Assembly: GCF_014283215.1 (NCBI RefSeq) | Contig: NZ_JACOMF010000006.1 | Span: forward strand, 124,001 to 188,000 | Length of the DNA: 64,000 nt | DNA from: Siccirubricoccus deserti | Lineage (GTDB): Bacteria; Pseudomonadota; Alphaproteobacteria; Acetobacterales; Acetobacteraceae | Reading direction: 5' to 3' | Part shown: piece after piece, positions 6,209 through 35,171 of the stretch | How positions within the stretch are numbered: the first letter of the stretch is position 1 | Layout of the letters: the number at the start of each line of letters is the position of its first letter | The notes under the pieces: model-generated | Told to the model about the DNA's origin: nothing | Database searches by the model: none | The model's input: the letters and a program-made list of their open reading frames with translations, nothing else | Translations under genes and position numbers: made by a program

Positions 6209-6341
6209 GAACGCCCGTCAGGACCGCTGCGCAGCCTTACGGAGGGAAGGCCGGATGGTCCCTCCCGACCTGCGCCTCGGCATGGGCGCCCGCGGCCAGG
6301 ATGCGGCAAGGTCCGGCAGCACTCCAACCCTGTCCGGGCCG

Positions 6342-6917: not shown

Positions 6918-6918
6918 C

Positions 6919-8336
<1,418 letters not shown>

Positions 8337-8340
<4 letters not shown>

Positions 8341-8498
8341 TGCGCCTGACGACAGTGATGCTCGCCGTGCTCATGCTGGCCGGCTGCGGCCGGGTCGGCC
8401 CGCCGCGGCCGCCCGGGCCACCGGAGGCGGTGACCTTCCCGCGGGCCTATCCGGCACCGCCGCCGATGCCGGTCGAGGGGGAGACGATCCGGCGCTGA
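8337..8498 (+). CDS. lptM: Small lipoprotein, LptM/YifL-like
   Basis: A 53-residue protein starting at ATGATG that overlaps the argH stop. A short hydrophobic stretch (about residues 3-15) ends in the lipobox LAGC, so it should be lipidated at Cys16 or so and held in the outer membrane. After the cysteine comes [12 protein letters not shown], matching the Cys-Gly-x-x-Gly-Pro pattern of LptM, which helps LptD oxidation and maturation. In many proteobacteria this gene sits between argH and lysA. Here lysA is absent and a convergent gene follows 25 bases later. The family name rests on motif plus position. Confidence 0.65.
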
Positions 8499-8523
8499 GG
8501 CTGCGGCGCAGTGGCGAACGGCG

Positions 8524-11109: not shown

Positions 11110-11763
11110 GGCGATGGATCGCCTTGTTGGTGGGTGTCGCAGTCCAATGCGACCTTGAGGCCGCCGGAGCCCGACGGGAAATCAGGAAAGCGGGGGCTGC
11201 GCGAATCAGCGTGGCGAAGCCGGTCGGGCGCCATGAAAGGCCCGCCTGCTGCGGGTGAGACGCGGCGCGATCCTACCGCACGGCAGGGCTGATGGGGCCG
11301 ATCGGTGACCAGGCGAGCCGTTCCGGTGGACGTCCGGTTACCTCGCCCTGGGGCAGGATGCTCCGCTCAATGCCGCGCTGCCGCTCGCAGTTGCTGCTGC
11401 TTCTGCTGCTGGCGCAGGCAGCGCCCGGCGTCTTGTGCGAAAGCACGTCGAGGCTGGCGCGGTTCGGGACGTGGGCGCCGGGCACGAAAGCATGCTCAGG
11501 CCGATCAGAGGTCCGAGAGCAGCCTCCATCCAGGTGATGGCGCCAGAATGGAGCGGGTTCCTCGTAAGGCACAAAGCGAAGGTAGCTTCGTGAGCTCGGT
11601 CGAACGGAAGCGTGCCCTACAGCGGATGGCGTTCATGTCTGAACCCGATCCGCCGTAGCCTTCGTTCGTGGAGCGGACTCCCGCTCCGGGGTATTCGCGC
11701 CCCGCCGCGACTGCCTAGAGCCGTTTCACGCAGGCTGGAAACAGACTGTGTGAGAATTCCGCT
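11110..11763. other. Intergenic stretch with no recognisable gene
   Basis: About 650 bases lie between the oxidase start and the aminotransferase stop. Open frames here are short and have low-complexity, GC-driven compositions. The only structure seen is a 7-bp hairpin (GGAGCGG, loop ACTC, CCGCTCC) at 11670-11687. The promoter of the oxidase gene probably lies near 11110-11200, but no clear consensus is visible. A decayed mobile element cannot be excluded. Confidence 0.4.
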
Positions 11764-16843: not shown

Positions 16844-18145
16844 ATGACCGAGTTGGTGCGCGACCCTGGCCGGGTGCGCGATCTGGCCGCCGCCATGGCG
16901 GCCGGCACGCTGAGCGCGGAATCGCTGGTGCAGCGCTGCCTCGCCCGCATTGCCGAGGTCGATGGCCAGGTGCGGGCCTGGGTCCAGGTGCAGGCGGAGG
17001 CGGCGCTGGACGCCGCGCGCGTCCTGGATGCAGAGCGCGCCGAGGGGCGGCTGCGCGGACCGCTGCATGGCATTCCGGTCGCGGTGAAGGATGTGATCGA
17101 CGTCGCCGGCCTGCCGACCCGGGCGAACAGCCCGAGCCGCGCCGACATCGCGCCGGCCACCGCCGATGCCACGGTGGTGGCGCATCTGCGCGCCGCGGGG
17201 GCGATCATCCTCGGCAAGGTCCACACCACCGAATACGCCTATTTCGAATCCCGGCCACCGACCCGCAACCCCTGGAATCTGGCGCGGACACCGGGTGGCT
17301 CCTCGGCCGGATCGGGCGCCGCCATCGCCTGCGGCAGCGTGCCGCTGGCGCTCGGGACGCAGACCGCGGGCAGCGTGAACCGGCCGGCGGCCTATACCGG
17401 TGTTGCCGCCTTCAAGCCCTCCACCTTGGCCATCGGCGGGACCGGCGTGGTGCCGCTCTCGCCTTCCTTCGACACGGTCGGGGCCTTCGGCGCCACGGCG
17501 CAGGATGCGGCACTGCTCGCCGCCGGCTATACGGCGGACCATCTGCGGCTGCGCGCGCCCGCGCCGGCGGTGCCGCGCATCGTGGTGCTGGAGGATGCGA
17601 TGGTGGCGGCGAAGACCGCACACGCAACCGCGGCGCGGGTTGCCGCGCTGGCCGGCACCCTGACCGATGCCGGCCTCGCGCTGCGCCGCGCCAAGGCGCC
17701 GGTGCCGCTGGAGGTGCTGCTGGCGACACACCGCACGGTGATGCTGGCCGAACTCGGCCGTACCCATGCACGGCTGCCGATGGACGGCATCGCCCCGCGC
17801 ATTGTCACCGATATCGCCACCGGCCTGGCGATCCCGGACGCCGAGTACCATGCTGCGCTGGCCAGCCTGGCTGGCCAGCGCGCCAGCTTCTGGGCCGGCT
17901 TCGATCCGGATGAGCTGCTGCTGCTGCCGGCCGCGCCGGACGTGGCGCCGGATGCCGGCACCACCGGCGACCCCTCCTTCGTCATCCCGACCACGGCGCT
18001 CGGCGGACCGGTGGCGACGGTGCGGGCCGGGCTGGCTGCGGATAGCGGCATGCCGGTGGGCGCGCTGCTGTTCGGCGCGCCTGGGGCGGATGCGCGGCTG
18101 GCCGGCTTCCTGCTGTCGGAACTCGGCACCAGGCTCGATCTGTAA
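16844..18145 (+). CDS. Amidase signature family hydrolase
   Basis: A 433-residue member of the amidase signature family, which hydrolyses amides through a Ser-cisSer-Lys triad. Lys82 is in PVAVKDVID, the glycine/serine loop GGSSAGS is at 151-157, and the nucleophile should be Ser177 in TQTAGSVNRPA. The Gln in place of the common Asp before TAGS resembles allophanate-hydrolase-like and aryl-amidase subgroups. The start follows a GGAGG-like site. It diverges from the isochorismatase-type gene, and the shared 190-base spacer is a likely control region. Substrate unknown; the neighbours suggest a small amide or ureide. Confidence 0.87.
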   Translation: MTELVRDPGRVRDLAAAMAAGTLSAESLVQRCLARIAEVDGQVRAWVQVQAEAALDAARVLDAERAEGRLRGPLHGIPVAVKDVIDVAGLPTRANSPSRADIAPATADATVVAHLRAAGAIILGKVHTTEYAYFESRPPTRNPWNLARTPGGSSAGSGAAIACGSVPLALGTQTAGSVNRPAAYTGVAAFKPSTLAIGGTGVVPLSPSFDTVGAFGATAQDAALLAAGYTADHLRLRAPAPAVPRIVVLEDAMVAAKTAHATAARVAALAGTLTDAGLALRRAKAPVPLEVLLATHRTVMLAELGRTHARLPMDGIAPRIVTDIATGLAIPDAEYHAALASLAGQRASFWAGFDPDELLLLPAAPDVAPDAGTTGDPSFVIPTTALGGPVATVRAGLAADSGMPVGALLFGAPGADARLAGFLLSELGTRLDL

Positions 18146-18158
18146 CGGCGGCGCCGGG

Positions 18159-19808
18159 TCAGGCCGCGTCGGCGGCAGGCATCCGGCCGCGGATGAAATC
18201 CGCCGCCTTCTCGGCGATCATCAAGGTCGTCGCGTAGGTATTGGCGGAGGGCATGTTCGGCATGATCGAGGCATCCACCACCCGCAGCCCCTGCATGCCA
18301 TGCACCAGCAGGCGGTCATCGACCACGGCACCCGGGTCGGTGGCCGGGCCCATGCGGGCGGTGCCGATCAGGTGGTAGGTGGTGCTGCCGTTCCGCTTCG
18401 CGAAATCCAGCAACTCGTCATCGCGCTGCACCTCGCGGCCAGGCAGCGTCTCGGCCTCCAGATAGGGGGCCAGCTCAGGCGTGTTGAGCATCCGCCGCAG
18501 CAGCCGCATGCCGCCGAGATGCACCTGCCGATCCATCGGTGCCGAGAGGTAGTTGGGGTTGATCTCCGGGTCCTCGAACACATCCGCACTGCGGGCGCGG
18601 ACCCAGCCGGTGCTCTCCGGCCGGTGCTGCCAGGCGCCGGCGGTCACGCCGGGGTAGTTGTCCAGCACATAGACCTTGCCCTCGGCATAGCTGCCCGGGG
18701 TGAAGACGCATTGCAGGTCGGGCGCGTCCATCCCCTCGAAGCTTTTCCAGAAGACATGCACATGGGAAGGCGAGGTGGCCAGGATGCTCGGCCGCTTCAG
18801 CCCCCAGCGGGCGATCTCGCGGCCGAGGCGAAGGCCGCGCGACAGCTCGTTCAATGTGGTGACGCCGGGCTTCGCCCGCATGACGAAGCGGGAGGCATAG
18901 TGGTCGCGGAAATTGCTGCCGACGCCGGGCAGCGCATGCACCAGCGGCACGCCGAGCCGTTCCACCAGCTCGGCCGGACCGATGCCGGAGACCTGCAGCA
19001 GTCGCGCCGTATTCACCGTGCCGGCGGAGACGATCACTTCCCGCCGGGCCAGCACCGTCCGTGGCGCCGCGCCGCGCGCCGCCTGGTAGCGTACGCCGAT
19101 GGCGCGCCTGCCCTCGAAGAGGATGGCGCTGGCGCGGGCATTGGTGCGGACATTCAGGTTGCGGCGTGACATCGCCGGATGCAGGAAGCCACGCGCGGCG
19201 GAGACGCGGCGGCCATTCAGTATGGCGCGCTGGAAATAGCCGACACCGGCCTGATCGCCACTGTTGTAGTCCGGGTTGCGCGGGATGCCGAGACCGACGC
19301 AGCCGGCGATGAAAGCTTCAGACAGCGGGTGGATCCAGTCATTGTCGGTGACGGGAATGCCGCCGTCCCGCCCGCGCCGCGCCTCGTCGCCCAAGCCGAT
19401 GCGGCGTTCGCTGCGCCGGAAATAGGGCAGGCAATCAGCATAGCCCCAGCCGCGGTTGCCGCGCTGCGCCCAATTGTCGAGGTCGGCCGGCTGGCCGCGG
19501 TTGTAGATCATGCCGTTGACCGAGGAGGAGCCGCCAAGCGTCCGCCCCTGCACCGTGCTGATGCGCCGGCCACCGGTCATCTCCAGCGGCTCGGTCTTGA
19601 ACTGCCAGGTCACGCCCGGGTCGGCGAGGGTCTTGATGAAGCCGGCGGGGATATGGATGAAGGGGTTGCGGTCGGGCGGACCGGCTTCCAGCACGCAGAC
19701 GGTGGTGGTGCCGTCCTCGGTCAGCCGATTGGCGAGCACCGAGCCAGCGGCGCCGGAGCCGATGATGACATAGTCGAAGCTGTCGGCGCCTGGGTACCGG
19801 GCATTCAT
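18159..19808 (-). CDS. GMC-family FAD oxidoreductase (choline dehydrogenase-like)
   Basis: A 549-residue flavoenzyme. The FAD-binding IIGSGAAGSVLA is at about residues 15-26, the first GMC signature region (RTLGGSSSVNGMIYNRGQ) around 83-100, and SAGTVNTARLLQVSGIGP near 265. The C-terminal HLIGTARMGP carries the catalytic histidine region. No signal peptide is present. Such enzymes oxidise primary or secondary alcohols. Start ATG 19808 has CAGGAAG upstream. It is the third gene of a unit with a hydratase and a CoA-transferase, so an alcohol intermediate of a side-chain catabolic route is a likely substrate. It ends 14 bases from the convergent amidase. Confidence 0.9.
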   Translation of the reverse strand: MNARYPGADSFDYVIIGSGAAGSVLANRLTEDGTTTVCVLEAGPPDRNPFIHIPAGFIKTLADPGVTWQFKTEPLEMTGGRRISTVQGRTLGGSSSVNGMIYNRGQPADLDNWAQRGNRGWGYADCLPYFRRSERRIGLGDEARRGRDGGIPVTDNDWIHPLSEAFIAGCVGLGIPRNPDYNSGDQAGVGYFQRAILNGRRVSAARGFLHPAMSRRNLNVRTNARASAILFEGRRAIGVRYQAARGAAPRTVLARREVIVSAGTVNTARLLQVSGIGPAELVERLGVPLVHALPGVGSNFRDHYASRFVMRAKPGVTTLNELSRGLRLGREIARWGLKRPSILATSPSHVHVFWKSFEGMDAPDLQCVFTPGSYAEGKVYVLDNYPGVTAGAWQHRPESTGWVRARSADVFEDPEINPNYLSAPMDRQVHLGGMRLLRRMLNTPELAPYLEAETLPGREVQRDDELLDFAKRNGSTTYHLIGTARMGPATDPGAVVDDRLLVHGMQGLRVVDASIMPNMPSANTYATTLMIAEKAADFIRGRMPAADAA

Positions 19809-19827
19809 TGCGATGCTTCCTGTGGAG

Positions 19828-20613
19828 TCAGCGGCCGAAGCGGGCGGACACCCTGCCGAGCACCCCGAAATCGGCGACGACAAGATCGTCGGCCTCGATT
19901 TCCAGCGGGGTGGTGCAGGTGCCGGTGGTGATGACCTGCCCTTCCCGCAGCGCCACCCCATCCGCCGCCTGGGCATTGGCCAGCCAGGTCAGCGCCAGCC
20001 GCGGGTCGCCCAGCACATTGGCGCCGAGCCCGGCCCGGGTGTAGCGCTCGCCGACCCGCACCTGCACCGGATGCGCGGCAAGATCGAGGTCGCGCCAGCC
20101 ATCCGGCGCCGGCGGGCCGAGGACGAAGTGACGGGCGCAGGCGTTGTCGGCGGCGATCTGCGCCTCGCCGGCGGAAGCGACATCGGTGAAGCGGCTGTCC
20201 GGCACCTCGACCGCCGGATGGAGCGTGGCGACGGCCGCCATCACCTCCTCCATGCCGTAGGGCTGGATGCGGGCCGGCAGGTCTCGGCCCAGGCGGAAGG
20301 CGAATTCCGGCTCCGCCAGCCGCATCGCATTGCCGGCGAGGGGCACGCTGCCCGTCTCCGCCACCACCATCTCCGCCAGGATGCGTCCGGCCACCGGGCC
20401 GGTGAGGCCGATATGCGCCTGGCCGGCGGCGCTGGTGGCGGCGATCTTCCAGCCGTAGAGGGGCTGCGCGCTGCGGGCCTCGAACTGCGCCTGGATGGCA
20501 TAGCCTTCGGCCCGAGTCGCCGGGCGCAGCGCCGCGGGCAGGCTGTCGATGCGGCTGCCCGCCTGCCAGTGCCGCCACAGCAGCGCGGCGGCGGTGGCGA
20601 TATCCACCGGCAT
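19828..20613 (-). CDS. 2-keto-4-pentenoate hydratase / fumarylacetoacetate hydrolase-related enzyme
   Basis: A 261-residue cytoplasmic enzyme of the MhpD/HpaH hydratase family in the FAH superfamily. Visible features are YGWKIAATS near residue 52-60, the metal-binding EPEFAFRLGRDL near 99-110 and AVEVPDSRF near 135-143, and a C-terminal VITTGTCTTPLEI. Family members add water to 2-hydroxypenta-2,4-dienoates in meta-cleavage pathways, but some act as decarboxylases. Its ATG overlaps the stop of the CoA-transferase gene (TGATG) and the GMC gene follows after 19 bases, so the three are one operon read leftward. Confidence 0.85.
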   Translation of the reverse strand: MPVDIATAAALLWRHWQAGSRIDSLPAALRPATRAEGYAIQAQFEARSAQPLYGWKIAATSAAGQAHIGLTGPVAGRILAEMVVAETGSVPLAGNAMRLAEPEFAFRLGRDLPARIQPYGMEEVMAAVATLHPAVEVPDSRFTDVASAGEAQIAADNACARHFVLGPPAPDGWRDLDLAAHPVQVRVGERYTRAGLGANVLGDPRLALTWLANAQAADGVALREGQVITTGTCTTPLEIEADDLVVADFGVLGRVSARFGR

Positions 20614-21758
20614 CAGCCCTGGTCCAGCCAGGCGCGGATCTCGGCGCCATGCTCGTCGAGGTCGGGGGCGCGGCGGCGGATGCGCGCGGGCGTGTCGCTG
20701 AGGTGCACCGGCGACGCCAGCGCCCGCTGCGGCCCGAGCGCCGGATCGTCGTATTCGGTGATGACGCCGCGCGCCTCCGCCTGCGGGTGGCGCAGCGCCT
20801 CGTCATAGCTCAGCACCGGCTCGGCGGGGATGCCGACGGCCTCGAATTGCGCCAGCCAATGGGCGCTGTCCTGCGTCGCCAAATACTCCTGCAGCAGCGG
20901 GATCAGCACGGCATTGTTCTTCACCCGCTGCGCATTGCTGGCGAAGCGCGGATCATCCGCCAGCGCCGGCTGGCCGATAATGCCGCAGAGGGCGCGCCAG
21001 AATTTCTCCTTGGAGGCGCCGAGGGTGATCCAGCCGTCCCGGGTGCGGAACACCCGGTAGGGCGCCGAGCCGCGATGCAGCTGGCCCAGCCGCTCCGGCT
21101 TCGTGCCCAGCGCCAGCACATGGGCCGCCTCATAGACGCCGAGCGACAGCCCGGCTTCCAGCAGCGACTGGTCGATGCGCTGGCCGCGCCCGGTGCGGTG
21201 CCGCGCCTGCAGCGCGCCGAGCACGGCGATGGCGGTGTACATGCCGGCGGTCACATCGGTGATGGCGATGGGCAGGCGATAGGGCTCGCCATCCGGCGGG
21301 CCGTTGCCGGCCATCAGCCCGGACATGCCCTGCGCCATCATGTCGAGCCCGCCATGCGTCGCCCAGGGCCCGGTCTGGCCGAAGCCGGAGATCGAGGCGT
21401 AGATCAGCCGCGGGTTCTCCGCCTGCAACGCCTCCCATCCCAGACCGAGGCGATCCAGCGTGCCGGGGCGGAAATTCTCCAGCAGGACATCGGCGCGCAG
21501 CGCGAGGCGGCGCACCACGGCGAGGTCGTCCTTGGCCTTCAGGTCGAGCGCGATGCTGCGCTTGTTGCGGTTCCATACCGCGAAGGGCGCGCCGCGTCCC
21601 TCGACGAAGGGCGGCATCCGGCGGGCGTCGTCGCCACCATCCGGACGCTCCACCTTGATGACGTCGGCGCCCATGTCGCCGAGCAGCATGGCGCAATAGG
21701 GGCCCGAGAGAAAATTGGTCAGGTCGAGGACGACCAGCCCATCCAGCGCCATCTCCAT
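20613..21758 (-). CDS. CaiB/BaiF family (class III) CoA-transferase
   Basis: A 381-residue enzyme of the formyl-CoA transferase family, which moves CoA between carboxylic acids. The N-terminal GLVVLDLTNFLSGPYCAMLL and GADVIKVERP are standard. The aspartate that forms the acyl-anhydride should be Asp139 in GGLDMMAQG. The start is ATG 21758; a second ATG two codons later is possible. First gene of the leftward operon, it probably activates the acid that the hydratase and GMC enzyme then handle. It diverges from the DUF4387/AtuA pair across a 112-base spacer. Confidence 0.88.
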   Translation of the reverse strand: MEMALDGLVVLDLTNFLSGPYCAMLLGDMGADVIKVERPDGGDDARRMPPFVEGRGAPFAVWNRNKRSIALDLKAKDDLAVVRRLALRADVLLENFRPGTLDRLGLGWEALQAENPRLIYASISGFGQTGPWATHGGLDMMAQGMSGLMAGNGPPDGEPYRLPIAITDVTAGMYTAIAVLGALQARHRTGRGQRIDQSLLEAGLSLGVYEAAHVLALGTKPERLGQLHRGSAPYRVFRTRDGWITLGASKEKFWRALCGIIGQPALADDPRFASNAQRVKNNAVLIPLLQEYLATQDSAHWLAQFEAVGIPAEPVLSYDEALRHPQAEARGVITEYDDPALGPQRALASPVHLSDTPARIRRRAPDLDEHGAEIRAWLDQG

Positions 21759-21870
21759 CCGCCTTGCCTCCCCAATGGCGGAAGTAAAGCCCCGGCCGTG
21801 GCTGGCAGCAACCGCGGCTTGACCGGCCCGGACCGCAGCCGGACAGTCCCGCGCAAAGGGAGTGAAGGCC

Positions 21871-22182
21871 ATGGAAGCCAGAAGGCTGGTCGATCTTGCG
21901 CAAGTGATCCGCAGCAAGAACGCAGGACCGCTGCACCTGACGCTCGACATCATCTTCGCCGATGCCGAGGGCTTTGCCCTGGCCGCGCAATCTCCGGCGC
22001 TGGGGGCGGCGGCGATCGCCGGTCTCTATGGCGTGGCGCCGGCGACGGTGCAGGTGATTCCCTTCGCCGCGGCGAATGCCATCAAGGTGGTGCTGGACCG
22101 GCCGGTGGTGGCGGGCTCGCCCGGCGATGCCGATGTCTACGGCGCGCAGCAGCATCGGCCGCTGCTGAGGGTGGTGCTGTGA
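21871..22182 (+). CDS. DUF4387 family protein, copy 1
   Basis: A 103-residue protein. Family features are the N-terminal LAQVIRSKNAGPLHLTLDIIF and the C-terminal DADVYGAQQHRPLL. DUF4387 has no assigned activity but is consistently found beside or fused to AtuA/DUF1446 proteins, as here: its stop overlaps the GTG of the AtuA gene. The likely reading is a small subunit of a two-component enzyme. ATG 21871 is preferred over an in-frame GTG at 21862. A second copy at 28463-28774 shares the SKNAGP and DVYGAQQH motifs. Confidence 0.85.
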   Translation: MEARRLVDLAQVIRSKNAGPLHLTLDIIFADAEGFALAAQSPALGAAAIAGLYGVAPATVQVIPFAAANAIKVVLDRPVVAGSPGDADVYGAQQHRPLLRVVL

Positions 22183-23570
22183 GCGTCATCGCCCGGCTGC
22201 GCGAGGACGGCCCGCGCCCCGGCCAGCCGCTGCGGGTGCTGGCGGCCTCCGGCCAGCTCGGCAACGGCATTCCGGAGCCGGCGCTGCGCGCGGGGGTGGC
22301 GCGGCAGCCGCATGTGATCGGCTGCGACATGGGCTCGATCGACCCCGGCCCGTATTATCTCGGTGCCGGGCAGATGGCGACCTCGCCGGCGGTCACCCGG
22401 CGCGACCTGCGGCTGGTGGTGCAGGCGGCGCGGCAGGCGAAGGTGCCGCTGCTGATCGGCAGCGCCGGCACCGCCGGGGCGGCGCCGCACCTGGCGGCGG
22501 TGCGGGAGATGCTGCATGGCATCCTGCGGGAGGACGGCCTGGCGCTGCGCGTCGCCGTCATCCACGCCGATATGGACCGCGCCTGGCTGAAGGCGATGGC
22601 GGCGGCAGGCCGGATGCGGCCGATCGGCGGCATCGGCGCGGCCACCGCGGCCGAGATCGACGGCGCCGCGCAGATCGTCGGCCAGATGGGCACCGAGGCT
22701 TTCCTGCGGGCGCTGGCGCTGGAGCCGGACATCATCCTCGCCGGCCGGGCCTGCGACACGGCGGTCTTCGCCGCGGTGCCGCTGCTGCTGGGCTATCCGC
22801 CGGCGGCGGCGACGCATATGGCGAAGATCATCGAATGCACCTCGCTCTGCTGTGTGCCGGGTGGCCGCGACGCCATACTCGGCACGCTGTACGGCGATGA
22901 ATTCGAGCTGGAGAGCATGAACCCGGCGCGCGCCGCGACCCCGGTCTCGGTGGCGGCGCACAGCCTCTACGAGCAGGCTGACCCGTTGCAGGTGGCGGAG
23001 CCGGAAGGGGTGCTGAACCTCGCCGAGACGCGTTTCGCGGCGCTGGACGAGCGCCGGGTGCGGGTTGGCGGCGCGCGCTGGACGCCGGCGGTGCAGCCCA
23101 GCGTGAAGATCGAGGGCGCGAGCTGGTGCGGCGAGCGGGCGGTGATGCTCTCAGCCAGCTGCGACCCGAAGGTGATCGAGAATCGGAAGGCGATCCTCGC
23201 CGGTGTGCGCGGCATCGTCGCCGATATCCTGCCCGGCCAGGACTACGAGCTGCGGGCCCGGGTCTATGGCGCCGGCGCCTCCGGCCTGTTCCCTGGCATG
23301 GCGCCGCTGCCCGAGCCGGCGGAGGTGTTCTTCCTGCTGGAATGCATCGCCCCGACCGCCGAGCTGGCCAAGGCGGTGGTCGGCGTCGCCAAGCAGAATC
23401 TGTTGCACTTCGGCTTCCCTGGCCGGCTGTCCACCGGCGGGAACATCGCCTTTCCCTTCACCCCGCCGGAGCTGCCGGCCGGGCCGGCCTACCGATTCTC
23501 GCTCTATCACATCGCCGAATGCGACGATCTGGCCGCGGTCTTCCCGGTGGAGCTGGAAATCATGCGCTGA
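22179..23570 (+). CDS. AtuA/DUF1446 family protein, copy 1
   Basis: A 463-residue cytoplasmic protein of the acyclic terpene utilisation AtuA family (DUF1446). Shared family segments include GCDMGSIDPGPYYLG near residue 48-62, LIGSAGTAGAAPHL near 90-103, ILAGRACDTAVFA near 187-199, and a C-terminal FPGRLSTGGNIAFPF. The strictly repeated Asp-Pro-Gly-Pro-Tyr and glycine-rich patches suggest a ligand pocket, but no activity is established. GTG 22179 overlaps the DUF4387 stop (GTGA), so both proteins are made together. It is paralogous to 27105-28463 but clearly diverged. Confidence 0.88.
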   Translation: MSVIARLREDGPRPGQPLRVLAASGQLGNGIPEPALRAGVARQPHVIGCDMGSIDPGPYYLGAGQMATSPAVTRRDLRLVVQAARQAKVPLLIGSAGTAGAAPHLAAVREMLHGILREDGLALRVAVIHADMDRAWLKAMAAAGRMRPIGGIGAATAAEIDGAAQIVGQMGTEAFLRALALEPDIILAGRACDTAVFAAVPLLLGYPPAAATHMAKIIECTSLCCVPGGRDAILGTLYGDEFELESMNPARAATPVSVAAHSLYEQADPLQVAEPEGVLNLAETRFAALDERRVRVGGARWTPAVQPSVKIEGASWCGERAVMLSASCDPKVIENRKAILAGVRGIVADILPGQDYELRARVYGAGASGLFPGMAPLPEPAEVFFLLECIAPTAELAKAVVGVAKQNLLHFGFPGRLSTGGNIAFPFTPPELPAGPAYRFSLYHIAECDDLAAVFPVELEIMR

Positions 23571-23609
23571 ACTCGCTGGCGGCAGGCCGCCGCCGCCGAT
23601 CGATGTGAG

Positions 23610-23840
23610 GTGCTGTTCGAGGCCGACCGGCGCGTCGAGCCTAGCGAGGCGGTGGGTGTCGTCGGCCTGAACGGCGCCGGCAAGACCACTCTGCTGCGGA
23701 TGATCTCCGGCCTGCTGCGGCCACGCTCTGGCAGCCTGCGCTGCGGTGGGCAGGACCTGGCCATGCTGCCTGCGCTTATTCCCGGGCCACGCGGAGGCAT
23801 TTCGAGCAGCGCCGCGACCACGTGTTCGAGATGTATAGGA
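23610..23840 (+). pseudogene. Truncated LivF/LivG-type ABC ATPase remnant
   Basis: From GTG 23610 the frame reads VLFEADRRVEPSEA, then a perfect Walker A (GLNGAGKTTLLRMISGLLRP) and GSLRCGGQDLAMLPA, the first 55 or so residues of a branched-chain amino-acid-type ATPase. After that the similarity stops: no Q-loop, signature or Walker B is present, and the sequence runs into the end of the opposite-strand transporter gene. No permease or receptor of such a system lies nearby. It is a dead 5' fragment. Confidence 0.6.
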
Positions 23841-23844
23841 CGGG

Positions 23845-25398
23845 TCACGCCGGCTTGGCGCGCCGCCGCGTCGCCAACGCCGGCAGCACCGCCAGGGCGC
23901 AGGCGATGGACACCCAAAGGAAGCTGTCGCGGAAGGCCAGCATGCTGGACTGCGCCTGCAGGGTACGTGAGAGGAAGTTATAGGCTCCGGCCAGCCGCTC
24001 GGTCTCCGGCACGCCATCCTGGGCCAACAGTCCCTGGGTCAGGCGGAGGAATTCCTGGGTGCCGGAGTTGCCGGGATTCTGGGTCGGCGTCAGCGATTGC
24101 GCATGCAACTCGGTATGCTGCTCCAGCACCACGGAGAGCAGGTTCACCCCCAGCGCACCGCCGAACTGTCGGGCGAAATTGATCCCGCCCGCGCCCTGGC
24201 CGAGGAAGCGCGGCGGCAGCGCCCGCAGCGCCCCGGCATTCATCGAGGGCATGGTAAGCCCGAGCCCGATGCGCCCGACCATGATCCACAGCGCCATGGT
24301 CCAGAAGGGCGTATCGGTATCGACGCCGCGCAGCAGCCAGCAGGACAGCGCGAACAGCAACAGGCCGGCCACCACCGGCTGCCAGACCGGAATCCGGTCG
24401 GCCAGCCTTCCGGCGATGGGGAAGACCACCACCATGATCAGCCCCGCCGGCATCAGCACCAGCCCTGCCCGCGTCGCGGTGTAGCCCTGGATGGTCTGAA
24501 CGAAGAGGGGGATGAGATAGGTAGTGCCGAAGATGCTGGCGCCGTAGACCAGCGCCACCGCGAAGGCGGCGGCGAAGCCGCGGTTGGCGAAGACTCGCGG
24601 GTTCATCAGCGGCGCCGGCGTGCGCATCTCCCAGCCCAGGAACAGTGCGGCGGCCAGGCCGGCGAGGCCGAGCTCGACCAGCACGCGGTTCGACCCCCAG
24701 CCCTCGCGCTGGCCGCTGGACAGGCCGGTGAACAGCGCCAGCAGCGCGACCAGCAGCAGCGCGAAGCCGGGCGCGTCGAACCGCCGCCGCGGCCCATCCT
24801 CGGCACGGTCCGGCATGAACACCATGGCCAGGGCGACACCGATCAGCGCCGGCGGGACGGAGAGGAAGAACACGCTCCGCCAGCCGTAATTATCCACCAT
24901 GACGCCGCCGAGCGTCGGCCCCAGTGCTGGCGCCAGGACGATGCCGACCGCGGCGATGCCCATGGCGGAGCCGCGCTTCTCCGGCGGGAAGACCTGGAAG
25001 ATGATCTGGGTGCCGAGCGGCTGCATCATCCCGGCCGACGCACCCTGCAGGATGCGCCCGAGGATCAGCAGGCCCTCATTCGGCGCGAAGCCGGAAACGA
25101 CGGAGCCGGTCAGGAAGATCACCACCGCCCCGGCATAGGTGGCGCGGTAGCCGAAGCTTTCGGTGAACCAGGCGTTCAGCAGCATGGTGCCGGTGACGGC
25201 GGCGAGGAAGCCGGTGGAGAGAAGCTGCGCATGGTCCTGGCCGATGCCGAAGGCGCCCATCACATCCGGCAGCGCGACATTGACGATGGTGGAGGCAAGG
25301 ATGGTCGAGAGCGTGCCGATGATGGCGGTGATGGTGACCAGCCAGCGGTAGGATGGGCCGAAGCGCTTGCCGAGCGTCTCCAGCGTCCGCTCACTCAA
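23845..25398 (-). CDS. emrB: DHA2-family drug:proton antiporter (EmrB/QacA type)
   Basis: A 517-residue inner-membrane transporter with about 14 hydrophobic segments. The family motif of TM1-2 (STILASTIVNVALPDVMG) and motif A-like LGRILQGASAGMMQPLG are clear. EmrB exports hydrophobic acids or drugs through a tripartite channel with the adaptor EmrA and an outer-membrane TolC. Its TTG start at 25398 overlaps the last bases of the adaptor gene, so the two are coupled; MarR precedes both. No tolC is in the window. Its place between the two AtuA modules suggests export of a pathway substrate or toxic intermediate. Confidence 0.9.
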   Translation of the reverse strand: MSERTLETLGKRFGPSYRWLVTITAIIGTLSTILASTIVNVALPDVMGAFGIGQDHAQLLSTGFLAAVTGTMLLNAWFTESFGYRATYAGAVVIFLTGSVVSGFAPNEGLLILGRILQGASAGMMQPLGTQIIFQVFPPEKRGSAMGIAAVGIVLAPALGPTLGGVMVDNYGWRSVFFLSVPPALIGVALAMVFMPDRAEDGPRRRFDAPGFALLLVALLALFTGLSSGQREGWGSNRVLVELGLAGLAAALFLGWEMRTPAPLMNPRVFANRGFAAAFAVALVYGASIFGTTYLIPLFVQTIQGYTATRAGLVLMPAGLIMVVVFPIAGRLADRIPVWQPVVAGLLLFALSCWLLRGVDTDTPFWTMALWIMVGRIGLGLTMPSMNAGALRALPPRFLGQGAGGINFARQFGGALGVNLLSVVLEQHTELHAQSLTPTQNPGNSGTQEFLRLTQGLLAQDGVPETERLAGAYNFLSRTLQAQSSMLAFRDSFLWVSIACALAVLPALATRRRAKPA

Positions 25399-26527
25399 TG
25401 GCGCTGGCCTCGACCTGCACCATCATCCCGGGCCGCAGCAGGCCAGGCTCCGGCGCCGGACGCAACGCGATCCGCACCGGCAGGCGCTGGGTGATCTTGG
25501 TGAAATTGCCCGAAGGGTTGGGGCTCGGCAGCAGGGCGAATTCGCTGGTGGCGGCGCTGGCGACGCGTTCCACCACCCCGTCGAAGCGCCGGCCGGGCAG
25601 CGCATCCACCGTGACCCGCACCGCCGTGCCGGGACGGAACCAGCGGATCTCGGTCTCCTTCACATTCGCCTCCACCCGCACCCGCGTCGGGTCGTGCAGC
25701 ATCAGCACCCGCTGGCCGGCGGCGACATACTCGCCGGGGTCGATGAACACCCGGTCGATGCTGCCGTCGAAGGGCATCAGGATGCTGCGGTCGCGCAGGT
25801 CGAGCGCGGCGCGGTCGCGCTGCGCCGCCAGCTCGCGCGCCTGCGGCTCCAGCGATTCGATCTGGCGGCGCAGCACCCTCAGCTCCTCCCGCGCTGCCGT
25901 CGCGGCGGCGATCTGTGCCTCGGCATTGAGGATCTCGGCGGTGGCGCCCAGCACCTTCTGTCGCGCCGCATCCAGCAGGCTGCGGGTCTGGTCGTGGCGC
26001 TGCCGCGTGCCGCTGCCGCTAGCCATGAGCTGCATGGCGCGGCCGTACTCGGCCTCGGCGAAGACCCGCTCGGCCTCGGCGGCGGGCAGGGCGGCGCGGG
26101 CCACCTCCAGCTTCGCGCGGCTGCCGGCCTCGGCGCTGCTGGTCTGCAGGTCGACCATCGCCAGCCGCGCCTCCAGCTCGGCCCGCCTTGCGTCGACGCT
26201 GGCCAGCCGGGCTTCCAGCTCACGCAGCATGATTTCCGATTCGCGGCTATCGATGCGCACCAGCAGGCTGCCCCGGCTGGCGATGTCACCGGCGATGACC
26301 CGCACCTCGGCGACCCAGCCCGGGACGCGGGAGGAGACGGTGATCATGTCGGCGGCCACCCGGGCGTCATCGACGAAGACCAGGGTGACGAAGCGGTGGA
26401 TGAACCAGGCGGCACCGGCGGAGGTCGCCAGCAATGCCGCCACCAGCCCCAGCAGCCGCAGCCGCCGCGCCAGGCCGCGATCGGGCGCGAACAGCTTGCG
26501 GGCAGCGCTAGGCTGGCCGATGTCCAT
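25391..26527 (-). CDS. emrA: HlyD/EmrA-type membrane fusion protein
   Basis: A 378-residue periplasmic adaptor anchored by one N-terminal helix (about residues 22-45). It has a lipoyl-like half near VPGWVAEVRVIAGD, a long alanine/arginine-rich coiled-coil hairpin (about 85-215), the second lipoyl half (SILMPFDGSID) and a beta-barrel (RWFRPGTAVRVTVDALPG). It would link EmrB to TolC. ATG 26527 has a strong AAGGAGGA site and lies inside the end of the MarR gene; the overlap of 20 bases indicates coupling. Confidence 0.9.
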   Translation of the reverse strand: MDIGQPSAARKLFAPDRGLARRLRLLGLVAALLATSAGAAWFIHRFVTLVFVDDARVAADMITVSSRVPGWVAEVRVIAGDIASRGSLLVRIDSRESEIMLRELEARLASVDARRAELEARLAMVDLQTSSAEAGSRAKLEVARAALPAAEAERVFAEAEYGRAMQLMASGSGTRQRHDQTRSLLDAARQKVLGATAEILNAEAQIAAATAAREELRVLRRQIESLEPQARELAAQRDRAALDLRDRSILMPFDGSIDRVFIDPGEYVAAGQRVLMLHDPTRVRVEANVKETEIRWFRPGTAVRVTVDALPGRRFDGVVERVASAATSEFALLPSPNPSGNFTKITQRLPVRIALRPAPEPGLLRPGMMVQVEASAIE

Positions 26528-27002
26528 CGGGATCCTCCTTGGGGCCCGGGTCCGGCGGCGGCGCCAACCCGACGAGGATGCGCTCCAGCACGGCGAGGCA
26601 GGCGGCGAGCTCGGCTTCCGGAATGGCCGCCATGATCTCCGCCCGCACCTGGGTCGCCGCGCCTTCGATCCGGTGGATCAGCGGGCCGGCCTTGTCGGTC
26701 AGGTGCAGGGTCTTGGCGCGGCGGTCGAGTGCTGATTCGCGCCGTTCGACCAGCGCCTCCGCCTCCAGCCAATCCAGCGTGCGGACCAGCGTCGGCCCCT
26801 CGATCGACAGCAGGGCCGCGAGCTGCTTCTGGGTCAGCCCATTGCCGCCGCGCGACAGCGTCAGCAGCGCCAGCCAGCGTGCCTCGGTCAGCCCGTATTC
26901 GGCGATGCGCGCGTCCAGCCGCGCCCGCCAGCGCCGCGAGATCTGCGCTATCGTGATGCCGATGCGCCATTGGGTATGGGCGAGGGAGGAACCGTCCCGC
27001 AT
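26508..27002 (-). CDS. MarR-family transcriptional regulator
   Basis: A 164-residue winged-helix regulator. The recognition segment LTQKQLAALLSIEGPTLVRTLDWLE (about residues 55-79) and wing (ESALDRRAKTLHLTDKA) are typical. MarR proteins usually repress the adjacent efflux operon and their own gene and let go when they bind a phenolic or other small molecule. It is the first gene of the emrAB unit and diverges from the second AtuA operon, so it may control both. ATG 27002 has no clear ribosome site, but no other start is available. A palindrome at 27028-27041 is a candidate operator. Confidence 0.88.
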   Translation of the reverse strand: MRDGSSLAHTQWRIGITIAQISRRWRARLDARIAEYGLTEARWLALLTLSRGGNGLTQKQLAALLSIEGPTLVRTLDWLEAEALVERRESALDRRAKTLHLTDKAGPLIHRIEGAATQVRAEIMAAIPEAELAACLAVLERILVGLAPPPDPGPKEDPDGHRPA

Positions 27003-27027
27003 CCGGCTACAGTAGGATGCCAGCGAA

Positions 27028-27041
27028 TAGCTAGGAAGCTA
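27028..27041. promoter_or_regulatory. Candidate MarR operator, TAGCT-AGGA-AGCTA
   Basis: A perfect inverted repeat of 5-bp arms (TAGCT and AGCTA, 4-base spacer) lies in the 102-base spacer between marR and the divergent AtuA gene. The flanking AATAGCTAGGAAGCTAGATA is strikingly AT-rich for this DNA and also contains the direct repeat AGCTAG. Position and symmetry fit a MarR site; binding is inferred. Confidence 0.45.
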
Positions 27042-27104
27042 GATATTGGGGGCTTACCAGCCGGCGCCGCCGGACGCAGGATGGGGGCAGGGGAGGGCAG
27101 GTTG

Positions 27105-28463
27105 ATGCGCGAATTCCGCATGGTGTCGGTCAGCGGCATCCTGGGCTACGGCTATCCGGAGGCGTCGCTGGATGCGGCGGTGGCGCGTGGCATCGACATG
27201 ATCGGCTGCGACGGCGGCAGCAGCGACCCCGGCCCCTACTACCTCGGCAGCGGCAAGCCCTTTGTCTCGCTGCGGGCGATGAGGCGCGACCTGCGGCTGA
27301 TGCTGCGGGCCGCCATCCGCAGCAAGGTGCCGATGGTGGTCGGCACCGCCGGCGGCGCCGGCGGCGCGCCGCATCTGCAGCTGGTGGCGCAGATGGTCCG
27401 CGACATCGCGCGGGAGGAAGGGCTGCATTTCAACCTCGCCCTGATCCATGCCGAGCAGGACAAGGCGAAGATTGCCTCCCGCATCCGTGAAGGCCGCACC
27501 GCGCCGCTCGGCCGCATGGCCCCGCTGGACGAGGCGACGGTGCAGCGCGCCACCCGCATCGTCGGCATGTGCGGGCCGGAGCCCTACATGCGGGCGCTGG
27601 ACCAGGGCGCGCAGGTGGTGATCGGTGGCCGCAGCAGCGACCCGGCGCCCTTCGCCGCAAATGCCATGCGGGCGCAGCTTCCTCCGGGGCCGGCGTGGTA
27701 CGCCGGCAAGATGCTGGAATGCGGCGCCGCGCCCGCGCTGCCGAAGGGCCCGGATTGCCTGCATGTGATCGTGCGCGAGGATGGGGTGATCTGCGAGCCG
27801 ATGGGCGACCGCGCCTGCACCCCGATGTCGGTCGCCAATCATTCGCTGCACGAGAATGCCTCCCCGGTCCGCCATGTCGAACCGGGTGGGGTGCTCGACA
27901 CCAGCGACTGCCGCTTCGAGGCGGTCTCGCCCAAGGCGACGCTCGTCACCGGCATGCGCTGGACTCCAGCCGAGACCTATACGGTGAAGCTGGAGGCGGC
28001 GGAGATGCTGGGTCATCGTGCCATCACCATCTGCGGCACCCGCGACCCGGTGCTGATCGGCCAGCTCGACCATTTCCTCGACCTGGTGCGGGGGCTGGTG
28101 GCGGGGAAGGCGCGCGACCTCGACATCGCGCCGGAGGATTACCGGCTGACCATCCACAGCTACGGCGCCAATGGCGTGATGGCGGGGCGGGAGCCGGTGC
28201 GTGAGGTGCGTGGCCACGAGATCGGCTTCCTGGTCGATGTCATCGGCCGCGACGCCGACATCGCCGGCGCGGTCATCGCGCTCGCCCGCACCAGCATGCT
28301 GCACAGCGACTTCCCCGGCAGGCTGTGCAAGGAGGGCAACATGGCCTTCCCCTTCTCGCCGAGCGACCTGGCGGCGGGGGAGGTGTATCGCTTCAGCATG
28401 TCGCATGTCGTCATGCCCGACGATCCCTACGAGATGTTCCCGATCGAGCATGAGGTGGTGTGA
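27105..28463 (+). CDS. AtuA/DUF1446 family protein, copy 2
   Basis: A 452-residue AtuA-family protein. It shares with copy 1 the GCDGGSSDPGPYYLGSG segment near residues 28-44, VVGTAGGAGGAPHL near 75-88, GGRSSDPAPFAAN near 171-183 and the C-terminal DFPGRLCKEGNMAFPF. Sequence between these blocks is well diverged, so the two copies probably have different substrates. ATG 27105 follows GGGGAGGGCAGG. It heads a four-gene unit (AtuA, DUF4387, enoyl-CoA hydratase, Ldh_2 dehydrogenase). No membrane or secretion signal. Its biochemical activity is unknown. Confidence 0.88.
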   Translation: MREFRMVSVSGILGYGYPEASLDAAVARGIDMIGCDGGSSDPGPYYLGSGKPFVSLRAMRRDLRLMLRAAIRSKVPMVVGTAGGAGGAPHLQLVAQMVRDIAREEGLHFNLALIHAEQDKAKIASRIREGRTAPLGRMAPLDEATVQRATRIVGMCGPEPYMRALDQGAQVVIGGRSSDPAPFAANAMRAQLPPGPAWYAGKMLECGAAPALPKGPDCLHVIVREDGVICEPMGDRACTPMSVANHSLHENASPVRHVEPGGVLDTSDCRFEAVSPKATLVTGMRWTPAETYTVKLEAAEMLGHRAITICGTRDPVLIGQLDHFLDLVRGLVAGKARDLDIAPEDYRLTIHSYGANGVMAGREPVREVRGHEIGFLVDVIGRDADIAGAVIALARTSMLHSDFPGRLCKEGNMAFPFSPSDLAAGEVYRFSMSHVVMPDDPYEMFPIEHEVV

Positions 28464-28774
28464 TGGCGCTGATCCGCGACATCGCCAAGGTCTGCAAGAG
28501 CAAGAACGCCGGCCCCTTCGACCTCACCATCGACGTGGTGTTCGACGACGAGGCGATGTTCGACCGGGTGGCGGCGAGCGGCGTGCTCTGCCCGGCGCTG
28601 TTCGCTCGGCTCTACAACGTGGCCGAGGCGGATGTGCTGTTCACCCCCTACCGTGCCGGCCGCGCCTTCAAGGCGACGCTGCCACGGCTGGTGCCGGCCG
28701 GCGAGATCGGCGACACCGACGTCTATGGCGCGCAGCAGCACGCACCGCTGCTGGACGTCGACATCCCGCTGTGA
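28463..28774 (+). CDS. DUF4387 family protein, copy 2
   Basis: A 103-residue partner protein with VCKSKNAGPFDLTIDVVF near the N-terminus and DTDVYGAQQHAPLL near the C-terminus, both also in copy 1. ATG 28463 overlaps the AtuA stop (TGATG), and its own stop overlaps the GTG of the enoyl-CoA hydratase gene, so three proteins are translationally coupled. Gene order relative to AtuA is the reverse of that in copy 1. Probably the small subunit of an AtuA complex. Confidence 0.85.
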   Translation: MALIRDIAKVCKSKNAGPFDLTIDVVFDDEAMFDRVAASGVLCPALFARLYNVAEADVLFTPYRAGRAFKATLPRLVPAGEIGDTDVYGAQQHAPLLDVDIPL

Positions 28775-29508
28775 CCGCCGTGATCCTCAGCCGGGAAGGT
28801 GACGTCGCGACCCTCGGCCTGAATCGTCCGGCGCGCGGCAATGCGCTCGGGCCGGAGCTGGTGCAGGCGCTGGAGGAGGGTTTCGACGCCGCGCTGGCCG
28901 ATGGCGCCCGGCTGATCGTGCTGCGCGGCGAAGGCCGGCATTTCTGCACCGGCTTCGACCTGACCGACCTCGAGGCGCTGTCGGATGGCGACCTGCTGCT
29001 GCGCGTCGTGCGCATCGAGCAATTGCTCCAGCGCATCCATGCCGCGCCGGTGACGACCCTGGCCATCGCCACCGGCCGTACCTTCGGCGCCGGTGCCGAT
29101 CTCTTCGCCGCCTGCGACCATCGCATCGCCGTGGAGGGCGCCAGCTTCGCCTTCCCCGGCCCGGCCTTCGGCTTGGTGCTCGGCACCGCGCGGCTGGCGG
29201 CGCTGGTCGGGCGGGACCGGGCACGGGCGATCCTGCTCGCGGGGCAGGAGGTCACCGCCGAGGCGGCGCTGGCGGCTGGCCTCGCCACCGCGGTGCTGCC
29301 GCCGGCGGCGATCGCGGCCGAGCAGGCGCGCATCGCGGCCGCCGCGGCGCGGCTCGACCCGCCAACGGTGGCGGCGCTACATGCCCGGACGCGGCAGGCG
29401 GAGGACGATGCCGACCTCGCCGCGCTGGTCCGTTCGGCGGCGCGGCCGGGCCTCAGGCAACGCATTCTCGATTACCGCGCCGCGGTCGCGGCACGACGCA
29501 ACGCATAG
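28771..29508 (+). CDS. Enoyl-CoA hydratase/isomerase family protein
   Basis: A 245-residue crotonase-fold enzyme. The oxyanion-hole segments are ARGNALGPE near residue 20-28 and the FCTGFDLTDLE stretch near 59-69, followed by GRTFGAGADLFAACDHRIA near 97-115. The catalytic glutamates of classic hydratases are not obviously both kept: the usual Gly-Gly-Gly-x-E loop reads FGAGADLFAAC, so an isomerase or other crotonase reaction is equally possible. GTG 28771 overlaps the DUF4387 stop. Its presence suggests that the AtuA pathway runs on CoA thioesters. Confidence 0.85.
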   Translation: MTAVILSREGDVATLGLNRPARGNALGPELVQALEEGFDAALADGARLIVLRGEGRHFCTGFDLTDLEALSDGDLLLRVVRIEQLLQRIHAAPVTTLAIATGRTFGAGADLFAACDHRIAVEGASFAFPGPAFGLVLGTARLAALVGRDRARAILLAGQEVTAEAALAAGLATAVLPPAAIAAEQARIAAAAARLDPPTVAALHARTRQAEDDADLAALVRSAARPGLRQRILDYRAAVAARRNA

Positions 29509-29520
29509 GGGAGAGACACC

Positions 29521-30573
29521 ATGCCGAAGATCCAGGCGGAGAAGCTGCGGGAGATCGGCCGCGCCCTGCTGATCGCCAATGGCGTGCCGGATAGCGAGGC
29601 CGCCACCGTCGCCCGCCACGTCGTCAACGCCAACCTGGCCGGGCATGACAGCCACGGCGTCATCATGCTGCCGAATTACATCGAGCGGGTGCGGGTCGGC
29701 CACATCGTTCCCGGCGCGCCCTTCACCATCGTGCAGGAAAGCCCGACCACCACCGTGGTCGACGGCAATTGGGGCTTTGGCTACGTCACCAACGAAAAGG
29801 CGATGGCGCTGACCATTGAGAAGGCGGAGAAGAGCAACATCGCCGCCTGCACTGTTTTCCGCCAGGGCCATGTCGGGCGGCTGGCGAGCTATCCGCTGAT
29901 GGCGGCGAAGGCCGGCATGATCGGCATGGCCTGGGCCGATAGCGGCCGCTCCCCCAAGGGGGTCGCGCCCTATGGCGGGCGTGAGGCGCGGCTCGGCACC
30001 AACCCCTGGGCCATCGCCGTGCCCTCCGACCTCGAAGGGCCGATGTGCATGGATTTCGCCACCTCGGCGGTGGCGATGGGCAAGGTGAAGCTGGCTGAGG
30101 CCCGCGGGCAGGAAATCCCGCTCGGCTGGGTGGTGGACAAGGATGGCGAGCTGACCACCGATCCGGCGAAGATCAAGGGCGGCGCGCTGCTGCCGCTGGG
30201 CGGTCCCGGCGAGGGCTACAAGGGCACCGCCCTGGCGGCGATGGGCGAGATCTTCTGCGGCATCCTCACCGGCCTCGGCTTCGGCGTGGAGCCGAGCGGC
30301 CGCCACAATGACGGCTGCTTCCTGATCGCCATCAAGGTGGAGGCCTTCCGCCCGCTGCTGACCTTCCGCAAGGAAGTGGCCGATTTCGCCCACTACCTGA
30401 AGGACACGCCGCCCGCGAAGGGCAGCAAGGGCGTGCTCTATCCCGGCGAGGTCGAGCACATGGCGGAGAAGCAGCGCGCCGCCGAGGGCATCGAGATCGA
30501 GGACGCCACCTGGAAGAAGCTCGGCGCCCTGGCCAAGGAAGGCGGCATCGCCGACAAGCTCGGCTTCAGCTGA
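29521..30573 (+). CDS. Malate/L-lactate dehydrogenase family oxidoreductase (Ldh_2), second copy
   Basis: A 350-residue NAD(P)-dependent enzyme with the family motif GHDSHG at residues 41-46 and the RQGHVGRLASYPL segment near 118-130. It is paralogous to 3316-4401 but the two differ through most of their length. GGGGAGAG precedes the ATG, 12 bases after the hydratase stop, so it belongs to the AtuA operon. A 2-hydroxy acid or 2-keto acid is the expected substrate. Its last eight bases overlap the end of the opposite-strand gene. Confidence 0.88.
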   Translation: MPKIQAEKLREIGRALLIANGVPDSEAATVARHVVNANLAGHDSHGVIMLPNYIERVRVGHIVPGAPFTIVQESPTTTVVDGNWGFGYVTNEKAMALTIEKAEKSNIAACTVFRQGHVGRLASYPLMAAKAGMIGMAWADSGRSPKGVAPYGGREARLGTNPWAIAVPSDLEGPMCMDFATSAVAMGKVKLAEARGQEIPLGWVVDKDGELTTDPAKIKGGALLPLGGPGEGYKGTALAAMGEIFCGILTGLGFGVEPSGRHNDGCFLIAIKVEAFRPLLTFRKEVADFAHYLKDTPPAKGSKGVLYPGEVEHMAEKQRAAEGIEIEDATWKKLGALAKEGGIADKLGFS

Positions 30574-34560: not shown

Positions 34561-34998
34561 TGCCGTGAACAGGCTCTTGGCCTCGACGGCCGGAATGTTC
34601 TCCCGCCGCGGATGATGTCCTTCGAACAGCCGGCGGGGCGGATGTAACCCTTGTCAACCATGCAGGCGAGGCCACCGGTGCCGACCAGCCTTCCGGGCCG
34701 GTCGAATCGAGCCCCGGCCGCGCCAGGTAGCCGGGGAAGTTGGAGCAGCCGCGGACCTGAAGCCGGCCCTGCGCGCCGTCGGGCAACACCCGGCTTGCCG
34801 GGTCGATGATGCGCAGTTCCACCCCCGGCGGGGAGCAGCCATCGGCGGAGGTGGTCTTCGCCTCGGCATTATCCGGCTGGGTGGTGGTGACGGTACCATT
34901 CTCCGACATGCCCCAGGCGGAGTTGGCGGCGGCACCGAGGGTCTGCCGCGCCATATCTCCTTGGTCACGAAGACATCCTGCAACACGGCCGTACCGCC
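34561..34998 (-). pseudogene. Decayed acyl-CoA ligase (AMP-forming), frameshifted
   Basis: Read leftward, pieces in three frames line up with the C-terminal half of a medium-chain or cyclohexanecarboxylate-CoA ligase. They are GGTAVLQDVF near 34998; NSAWGMSENGTVTTTQPD, then VELRIIDPASRVLPDGAQG and GCSNFPGYLARPGLDST in the middle; DKGYIRPAGCSKDIIRGG; and finally ENIPAVEAKSLF near 34580. The adenylate-forming motifs are recognisable but broken by several frameshifts, and the 5' half and true end are missing. It may be the lost activating enzyme of the neighbouring pathway. Confidence 0.65.
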
Positions 34999-35171
34999 CA
35001 GGACATGACTTGGCTGCGGTCCTCGGCCGGTTGTTGGCGCAAGACCGAAACGACATGGTGCATCCCCGATGGCCGACGCGTTTGCGATGTGCGGGAAAGG
35101 CGGCGATGGTGGCCGGGCCAGGCCCCGCGCAGGGGCCCGGCCAAGCGATGATCTCGAAGGGGGTGAAGCGG

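Follow-up and report, generated by a model that had tools for sequence, protein, structure and literature searches.

What is the function of two AtuA/DUF4387 gene pairs that lie, in opposite gene order, within a 64,000-nucleotide stretch of the Siccirubricoccus deserti genome (contig NZ_JACOMF010000006.1, positions 124,001 to 188,000)? This whole stretch, hereafter the window, is part of a 6.33-Mb assembly of 275 contigs that is 99.1% complete. Judging from sequence, and for the second pair also from structural models, each pair quite probably constitutes a carbon-carbon lyase for tertiary hydroxy acids of the citramalate lyase (Cml) type, with AtuA as the large and DUF4387 as the small subunit of a single enzyme.

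An earlier, sequence-only reading of this DNA had described two AtuA/DUF4387 modules of opposite gene order, with translational overlap and shared motifs, and the frames, a Pfam scan of 30 open reading frames in the window and a motif check bear this description out (Table 1). In copy 1 the DUF4387 gene precedes the AtuA gene with a 4-base overlap, whereas in copy 2 AtuA comes first and the overlap is 1-4 bases, an alternative GTG start for DUF4387 being present at 28460. All four frames are uninterrupted, and the motifs SKNAGP, DVYGAQQH and DPGPYYLG are found in both copies. The Pfam cut-offs for the two families are 27 bits (DUF4387) and 22.8 bits (AtuA). Compared with one another, the copies are 43.0% identical in AtuA over 440 aligned residues and 52.1% identical in DUF4387 over 94.

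Table 1. The two gene pairs and neighbouring features, numbered from the first letter of the window
Feature	Position	Strand	Evidence and relatives
DUF4387 small subunit, copy 1 (CmlB-like), 103 aa	21871..22182	+	PF14330 109.3 bits; 9erq_B E 5.5e-25
AtuA large subunit, copy 1 (CmlA-like), 463 aa, GTG start	22179..23570	+	PF07287 58.3 bits; 9erq_A E 7e-93
AtuA large subunit, copy 2 (CmlA-like), 452 aa, ATG start	27105..28463	+	PF07287 62.6 bits (frame read from 27099); 9erq_A E 2.9e-112
DUF4387 small subunit, copy 2 (CmlB-like), 103 aa, ATG start	28463..28774	+	PF14330 108.6 bits; 9erq_B E 9.3e-21
Family III (CaiB-type) CoA transferase, divergent from copy 1	20613..21953	-	PF02515 442 bits; 78% identical gene in copy-1-clade L098
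Crotonase-type enoyl-CoA hydratase/isomerase, copy-2 operon	28771..29508	+	PF00378 99.2 bits; 81% L117, 79% L118
Ldh_2 (malate/L-lactate dehydrogenase family), copy-2 operon	29521..30573	+	PF02615 366.5 bits; 79-89% in L117, L118, L122 (same contig as L169), L123
MarR-family regulator, divergent from copy 2	26508..27002	-	PF12802; 74% L118, 72% L124, 78% L125
HlyD-type membrane-fusion protein, divergent efflux operon	25391..26527	-	PF16576; 84% L117
MFS transporter, divergent efflux operon	23845..25398	-	PF07690; 79% L117
GMC oxidoreductase	18159-19976	-	Pfam
Amidase	16844-18145	+	Relatives 32-50% identical in 10/142 loci

In a sequence search of solved structures, chain A of PDB entry 9erq was the sole match at E ≤1 for both AtuA copies, and each DUF4387 copy matched strongly to chain B and to nothing else; copy-1 DUF4387 also drew three weak matches with E-values of 0.05-0.42. 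With E-values as low as 1e-112, the resemblance to the solved relative greatly exceeds chance expectation. The depositors name these chains citramalate lyase subunit A (cmlA, AtuA family) and subunit B (cmlB, DUF4387), and entry 9evf, released on 2025-10-08, is titled 'Citramalate lyase - ADP - pyruvate complex'. AlphaFold2 models of the copy-2 proteins (mean predicted local distance difference test scores of 93.5 for AtuA and 90.9 for DUF4387) resemble the same chains: the AtuA model matches 9evf_A with a TM-score of 0.93, an E-value of 1.6e-57 and a Z-score of 50.9 (446 residues, 2.2 Å), the next best Z-score being 8.1, and the DUF4387 model matches 9evf_B with a TM-score of 0.82, an E-value of 3.1e-9 and a Z-score of 14.8 (99 residues), the next being 6.6. 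For residues 302-427 of copy-2 AtuA, the structural matches are segments of aminoacylase- and allantoate-amidohydrolase-type (M20) enzymes, at Z-scores of at most 8.1. Matches of copy-2 AtuA to carbamate kinase, UMP kinase and aspartate kinase (Z-scores 4.0-4.8) would fit a nucleotide site, but values below 8 do not count as evidence and they were left unused. A literature search found no paper on 9erq, 9evf or CmlAB. Because the PDB entries name the pair a citramalate lyase, the earlier statements that neither family has a proven activity and that the locus is a candidate for an undescribed biochemical system have been overtaken. The suggestion of a hydroxyacid substrate fares better, since citramalate, which citramalate lyase splits into pyruvate and acetate, is a hydroxyacid.

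DUF4387 was found in 19 of 299 sampled Pseudomonadota genomes (20 matches) and in 82 of 299 genomes from the family to which S. deserti belongs; in the family sample copy-1 AtuA has matches in 80 genomes, and 79 genomes appear in both tables. Of the 48 DUF4387 loci fetched from these two samples outside the window, 47 have AtuA beside DUF4387 or fused to it, as separate genes in 45 and as fusions in two, and the single locus lacking AtuA lies where its contig ends. In L016, one of the 47, AtuA is represented by a short, weakly matching piece (24.8 and 27.0 bits), possibly a broken copy. The confirmed relatives of copy 2 number at least 559, and among the best 80 of these, drawn from public genomes, DUF4387 adjoins AtuA in 78 loci, the other two ending at a contig edge. 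As the simple gene caller missed AtuA in seven of these 80, neighbour counts for them are lower bounds. Natural fusions at L139 (5919-8069) and L140 (6369-8450) encode proteins of approximately 700 residues in which additional sequence separates the two domains. An order of DUF4387 before AtuA was rejected for L218 and L228, where long frames begin before AtuA and the DUF4387 ends lie after it. The genome-wide tabulation of DUF4387 neighbours proposed in the sequence-only reading has thus returned consistent co-occurrence, and the idea that the two proteins are subunits of one enzyme gains support from this pairing, from the two natural fusions and from the relatives being chains A and B of 9erq and 9evf.

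Gene context in enterobacteria provides a further line of evidence. In Escherichia coli O157:H7 Sakai the genes for glutamate mutase S, L and E and for methylaspartate ammonia-lyase are followed by ECs_0760 (AtuA, 456 residues) and ECs_0759 (105 residues), and then by genes for a transporter, a fumarase-type hydratase and a cobalamin adenosyltransferase. A comparable arrangement is seen on a Salmonella plasmid and in Prevotella nigrescens, in the latter with two fumarase-type genes. Pfam assigns ECs_0759 to DUF4387 with 134 bits; in the record of this pair (L056, 26934-28618) it carries the label 'acyl-CoA synthetase' and AtuA the label '3-methylaspartate ammonia-lyase', and both look wrong. 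The solved 9erq protein is itself of the enterobacterial type, since its printed fragments share 95.1% (102 residues) and 91.8% (98 residues) identity with the proteins of the Salmonella plasmid, and 93.1% and 84.7% with those of E. coli. A 2015 study of this cluster describes what becomes of citramalate in E. coli O157:H7 as unclear and the neighbouring DUF1446 protein as being of unknown function (PMC4682846); citramalate lyase is the function missing from the cluster. The gene context therefore supports, independently, the citramalate lyase identity of the enterobacterial pair.

How did the two orders come to lie in one window? DUF4387 is the first gene in all 20 copy-1-clade loci that were fetched, from among 26 matches with at least 54% identity in genomes other than that of S. 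deserti, while AtuA is first in all 22 copy-2-like loci and in all ten other pairs fetched. As the DUF4387-first order marks the copy-1 clade, the opposite orders represent two lineages and no rearrangement in place, and a local inversion is ruled out by the same 20 loci. Recent tandem duplication is ruled out by the 43% identity of the copies, by their different clades and by relatives that hold their copies on separate contigs (G538, G415, G333). In a different genus, at locus L110 of genome G563 (5989-11822), a module of the copy-1 type and one resembling copy 2 lie within 5 kb, with two genes of a phosphoenolpyruvate (PEP) mutase cluster between them, so the closeness of the two modules can recur. 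Two genomes of the same genus in the family sample lack DUF4387, which marks the modules as accessory genes.

The window pairs share with CmlA/CmlB the same two subunits, matched along the full length of the sequence and, for copy 2, in fold, and the enterobacterial orthologues show the same gene pairing. They differ in being only 43.1% (copy 2) and 38.7% (copy 1) identical to the E. coli orthologue in AtuA and 49-50% identical in DUF4387. The phylogenetic tree retained 50 of 66 rows, 16 having been dropped for long branches or as near-duplicates, among them a third AtuA of S. deserti (L137), the fusion L020, the Halomarina row and L050. Five rows linked to glutamate mutase or fumarase fall in one eight-row group with 100/99 support. 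Across the enterobacterial-type (8 rows), copy-1 (18) and copy-2 (44) clades, 52 alignment columns are conserved, each at 94% or more.

Several observations weigh against the assignment of the window pairs as Cml-type lyases. Both copies fall outside the eight-row group with the glutamate mutase and fumarase links, in two other clades of the 50-row tree, and 26 alignment columns are clade-specific. The activity of 9erq and 9evf is taken from PDB names and titles. Many relatives lie outside glutamate mutase operons: of eight stretches fetched from annotated records besides those of E. coli, Salmonella and Prevotella, two are unannotated and six list no glutamate mutase, among them a Klebsiella plasmid on which the pair sits with aldehyde dehydrogenases and a fumarase. 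The S. deserti assembly itself has no glutamate mutase E, and its only match to methylaspartate ammonia-lyase is below the cut-off. Finally, the AtuA step of terpene degradation is disputed, a 2014 review assigning it to LiuE (PMC4097962). Taken together, the tree, the neighbours and the lack of glutamate mutase speak against participation in glutamate fermentation and favour other substrates. We infer that the window copies share the chemistry of citramalate lyase, and that they probably act on substrates that differ from each other and from that of the enterobacterial enzyme.

It is unlikely, by contrast, that the two copies are isoenzymes of ordinary citramalate lyase, degrading citramalate that derives from mesaconate or itaconate instead of glutamate. 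The identities to the E. coli orthologues and the 52 columns conserved across clades would suit such a role, and the CaiB-type coenzyme A (CoA) transferase next to copy 1 could provide the CoA esters of diacids of the mesaconate/itaconate type. However, the copies belong to separate, well-supported clades whose relatives keep different company, copy-1 relatives being linked to amidohydrolase and PEP-mutase/isocitrate-lyase-type genes and those of copy 2 to NtaA/DmoA-type monooxygenases and TctC, and none of the 30 window frames scanned with Pfam matched class I fumarase, the mesaconase type.

The genes around the window pairs were compared with a neighbour set of 142 loci (10 from plasmids, 80 from public genomes and 52 from other genomes) in which matches were accepted at E ≤1e-20; genes were called by a simple caller, and some loci lie on the same contigs, so that not all are independent. 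Relatives of copy 2 have an NtaA/DmoA-family flavin mononucleotide-dependent monooxygenase in 48 of the 80 public-genome loci, adjacent and on the same strand in at least 31, and TctC in 33 of the 80; two representatives of the monooxygenase reached 504 and 508 bits, the cut-off being 279.7. This association of the monooxygenase with copy-2-type AtuA, seen also in L057 and L058, extends over many Alpha- and Betaproteobacteria and suggests a monooxygenase-lyase pathway. In the window no such monooxygenase stands directly beside copy 2. Among the 20 copy-1-clade loci, the amidohydrolase cluster is near the pair in six and the PEP-mutase/isocitrate-lyase-type cluster in four, each cluster having been identified by one representative. 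TctC lies beside the copy-1-clade pair in L098 and L099, the former also having the close CaiB relative. These contexts suggest that different acids are fed into similar lyases, and they do not name the acids.

The genes around the window pairs bear on a further alternative, in which the substrates would be CoA esters, as for ThnQ/ThnS or the proposed AtuA: a crotonase would hydrate a 3-(carboxymethyl)-2-enoyl-CoA to the tertiary 3-hydroxyacyl-CoA, and the lyase would remove acetate to leave the 3-oxoacyl-CoA. The crotonase gene has an overlap with the copy-2 operon and is retained in two relatives, a CaiB gene lies beside copy 1 and in L098, and a hydratase is paired with an AtuA-type lyase both in the ThnQS reaction and in the Atu pathway. 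Nevertheless, this alternative appears rather doubtful: the substrate of the solved relative is a free acid, no biotin-dependent carboxylase was matched among the 30 window frames scanned, and at the threshold and with the gene caller used just two loci of the neighbour set gave a match to the hydratase. Among the closest relatives of copy 2, Ldh_2 is conserved in four genomes and the hydratase in two. CaiB has 19 matches in the set, one at 78% and the others at 32-40% identity; its true start in the window is probably near 21758, as the Pfam domain begins at residue 70. The sequence-only reading had listed a CaiB-type transferase, hydratases, and GMC and Ldh_2 dehydrogenases alongside the pairs. 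CaiB, GMC and Ldh_2 are indeed present, but one hydratase rather than several was found among the frames scanned, and GMC is not a conserved neighbour: it has no match at E ≤1e-20 in the 142 loci and was rejected as a part of the system on that account.

Amidase relatives recur near AtuA/DUF4387 pairs, for example in L103, L108, L210 and L214, and an amide possibly feeds the pathway. The window also holds an isochorismatase-type hydrolase, which has one match in the neighbour set (32%, L062), and an acetamidase-type protein. Such mixed neighbourhoods, with amidase relatives in 10 of the 142 loci, could fit a different kind of enzyme that shares only the fold of citramalate lyase, for instance a hydrolase, kinase or epimerase, and it is for one relative, approximately 40% identical, that an activity is named. 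This is improbable, as both subunits match CmlA/CmlB very strongly, conservation extends across the clades, and those AtuA-family members for which the searches turned up a reported or proposed activity are lyases, although the terpene one is disputed. Elsewhere in the window, positions 34806-36806 (+) encode a flavin monooxygenase whose best NCBIfam match is neopentalenolactone/pentalenolactone D synthase (235 bits, cut-off 1100), and positions 57314-59332 (-) encode a 672-residue protein with several 4Fe-4S ferredoxin domain matches.

If the pairs are Cml-type lyases, the large AtuA and small DUF4387 subunits would form one enzyme that breaks, by retro-aldol cleavage, the bond joining a tertiary carbinol carbon to the carbon adjacent to a free carboxylate, yielding a keto compound and acetate or another carboxylate. 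Candidate substrates would be related to citramalate, such as 2-hydroxy-2-alkyl diacids or 3-hydroxy-3-(carboxymethyl)acyl-CoA esters. Breaking the bond beside a tertiary alcohol would leave electrons on the carbon beside the free carboxylate, and a carboxylate is a poor electron sink. Since, in addition, the title of 9evf names ADP, we infer that an adenine nucleotide may activate the carboxylate, perhaps as an acyl phosphate. The classical citramalate/citrate lyase CitDEF would give the same net reaction, but its subunits are unrelated to AtuA and DUF4387 and it uses an acyl-carrier prosthetic group. The gene names CitDEF and CitCXG occur in PMC4682846.

The relationship of these pairs to the AtuA of terpene degradation is illuminated by the third AtuA of S. 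deserti, on contig C112 (42422-44097; L137, 6411-8128). Its separate, overlapping partner is AtuA_ferredoxin (PF23544) rather than DUF4387, and this is the one PF23544 match in the genome. The C112 pair is a split form of the terpene-type AtuA, and a glycerol-kinase-like gene, recognised by eye, lies upstream. PF23544 occurs in 20 of 150 sampled genomes and lies downstream of AtuA in all 20 loci, fused in 12 and separate in eight. An end-to-end HHalign comparison of DUF4387 (47 sequences given, 43 kept) with PF23544 (20 sequences) covered 98 columns with a probability of 86.5, a score of 36.2 and an E-value of 4.6e-6 for the single comparison, whereas the reversed profile scored 10.4 and 60 column shuffles reached at most 18.8. 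As the match exceeds these controls, DUF4387 and AtuA_ferredoxin are, on profile evidence, most likely the same small subunit in diverged form. DUF4387 is named in no paper found by the literature search, and the link to AtuA_ferredoxin may be in print elsewhere. The terpene-pathway protein is thus alike in belonging to the AtuA family and in having a small domain remotely homologous to DUF4387; it differs in that this domain is AtuA_ferredoxin, whereas both window copies pair with DUF4387, neither having the AtuA plus AtuA_ferredoxin architecture, and match the AtuA model in part only.

ThnQ/ThnS of anaerobic naphthalene degradation, compared here by description, is likewise an AtuA-like lyase that cuts next to a tertiary hydroxyl carbon, but its substrate is a CoA ester, according to PMC12016498. 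It is conceivable, if decidedly tentative, that AtuA with a small DUF4387 or AtuA_ferredoxin partner defines one superfamily of nucleotide-primed carbon-carbon lyases, in which an adenine nucleotide would convert a free carboxylate to an acyl phosphate, so that a tertiary hydroxy acid could undergo retro-aldol cleavage with no need of CoA, biotin or any acyl-carrier prosthetic group. The splitting of citramalate, the release of acetate in terpene degradation and the opening of the naphthalene ring would then be variants of this chemistry, and the window copies two more, with new substrates.

Many genes labelled only 'AtuA family' or 'DUF4387', among them the numerous relatives of copy 2, can be given a testable chemistry, and mislabelled pairs such as that of E. 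coli O157:H7 Sakai can be corrected. The assignment would fill the citramalate step noted as missing in 2015 for enterobacterial glutamate fermentation, and homology between DUF4387 and AtuA_ferredoxin would join the terpene, naphthalene and citramalate enzymes in one family with fused and split forms.

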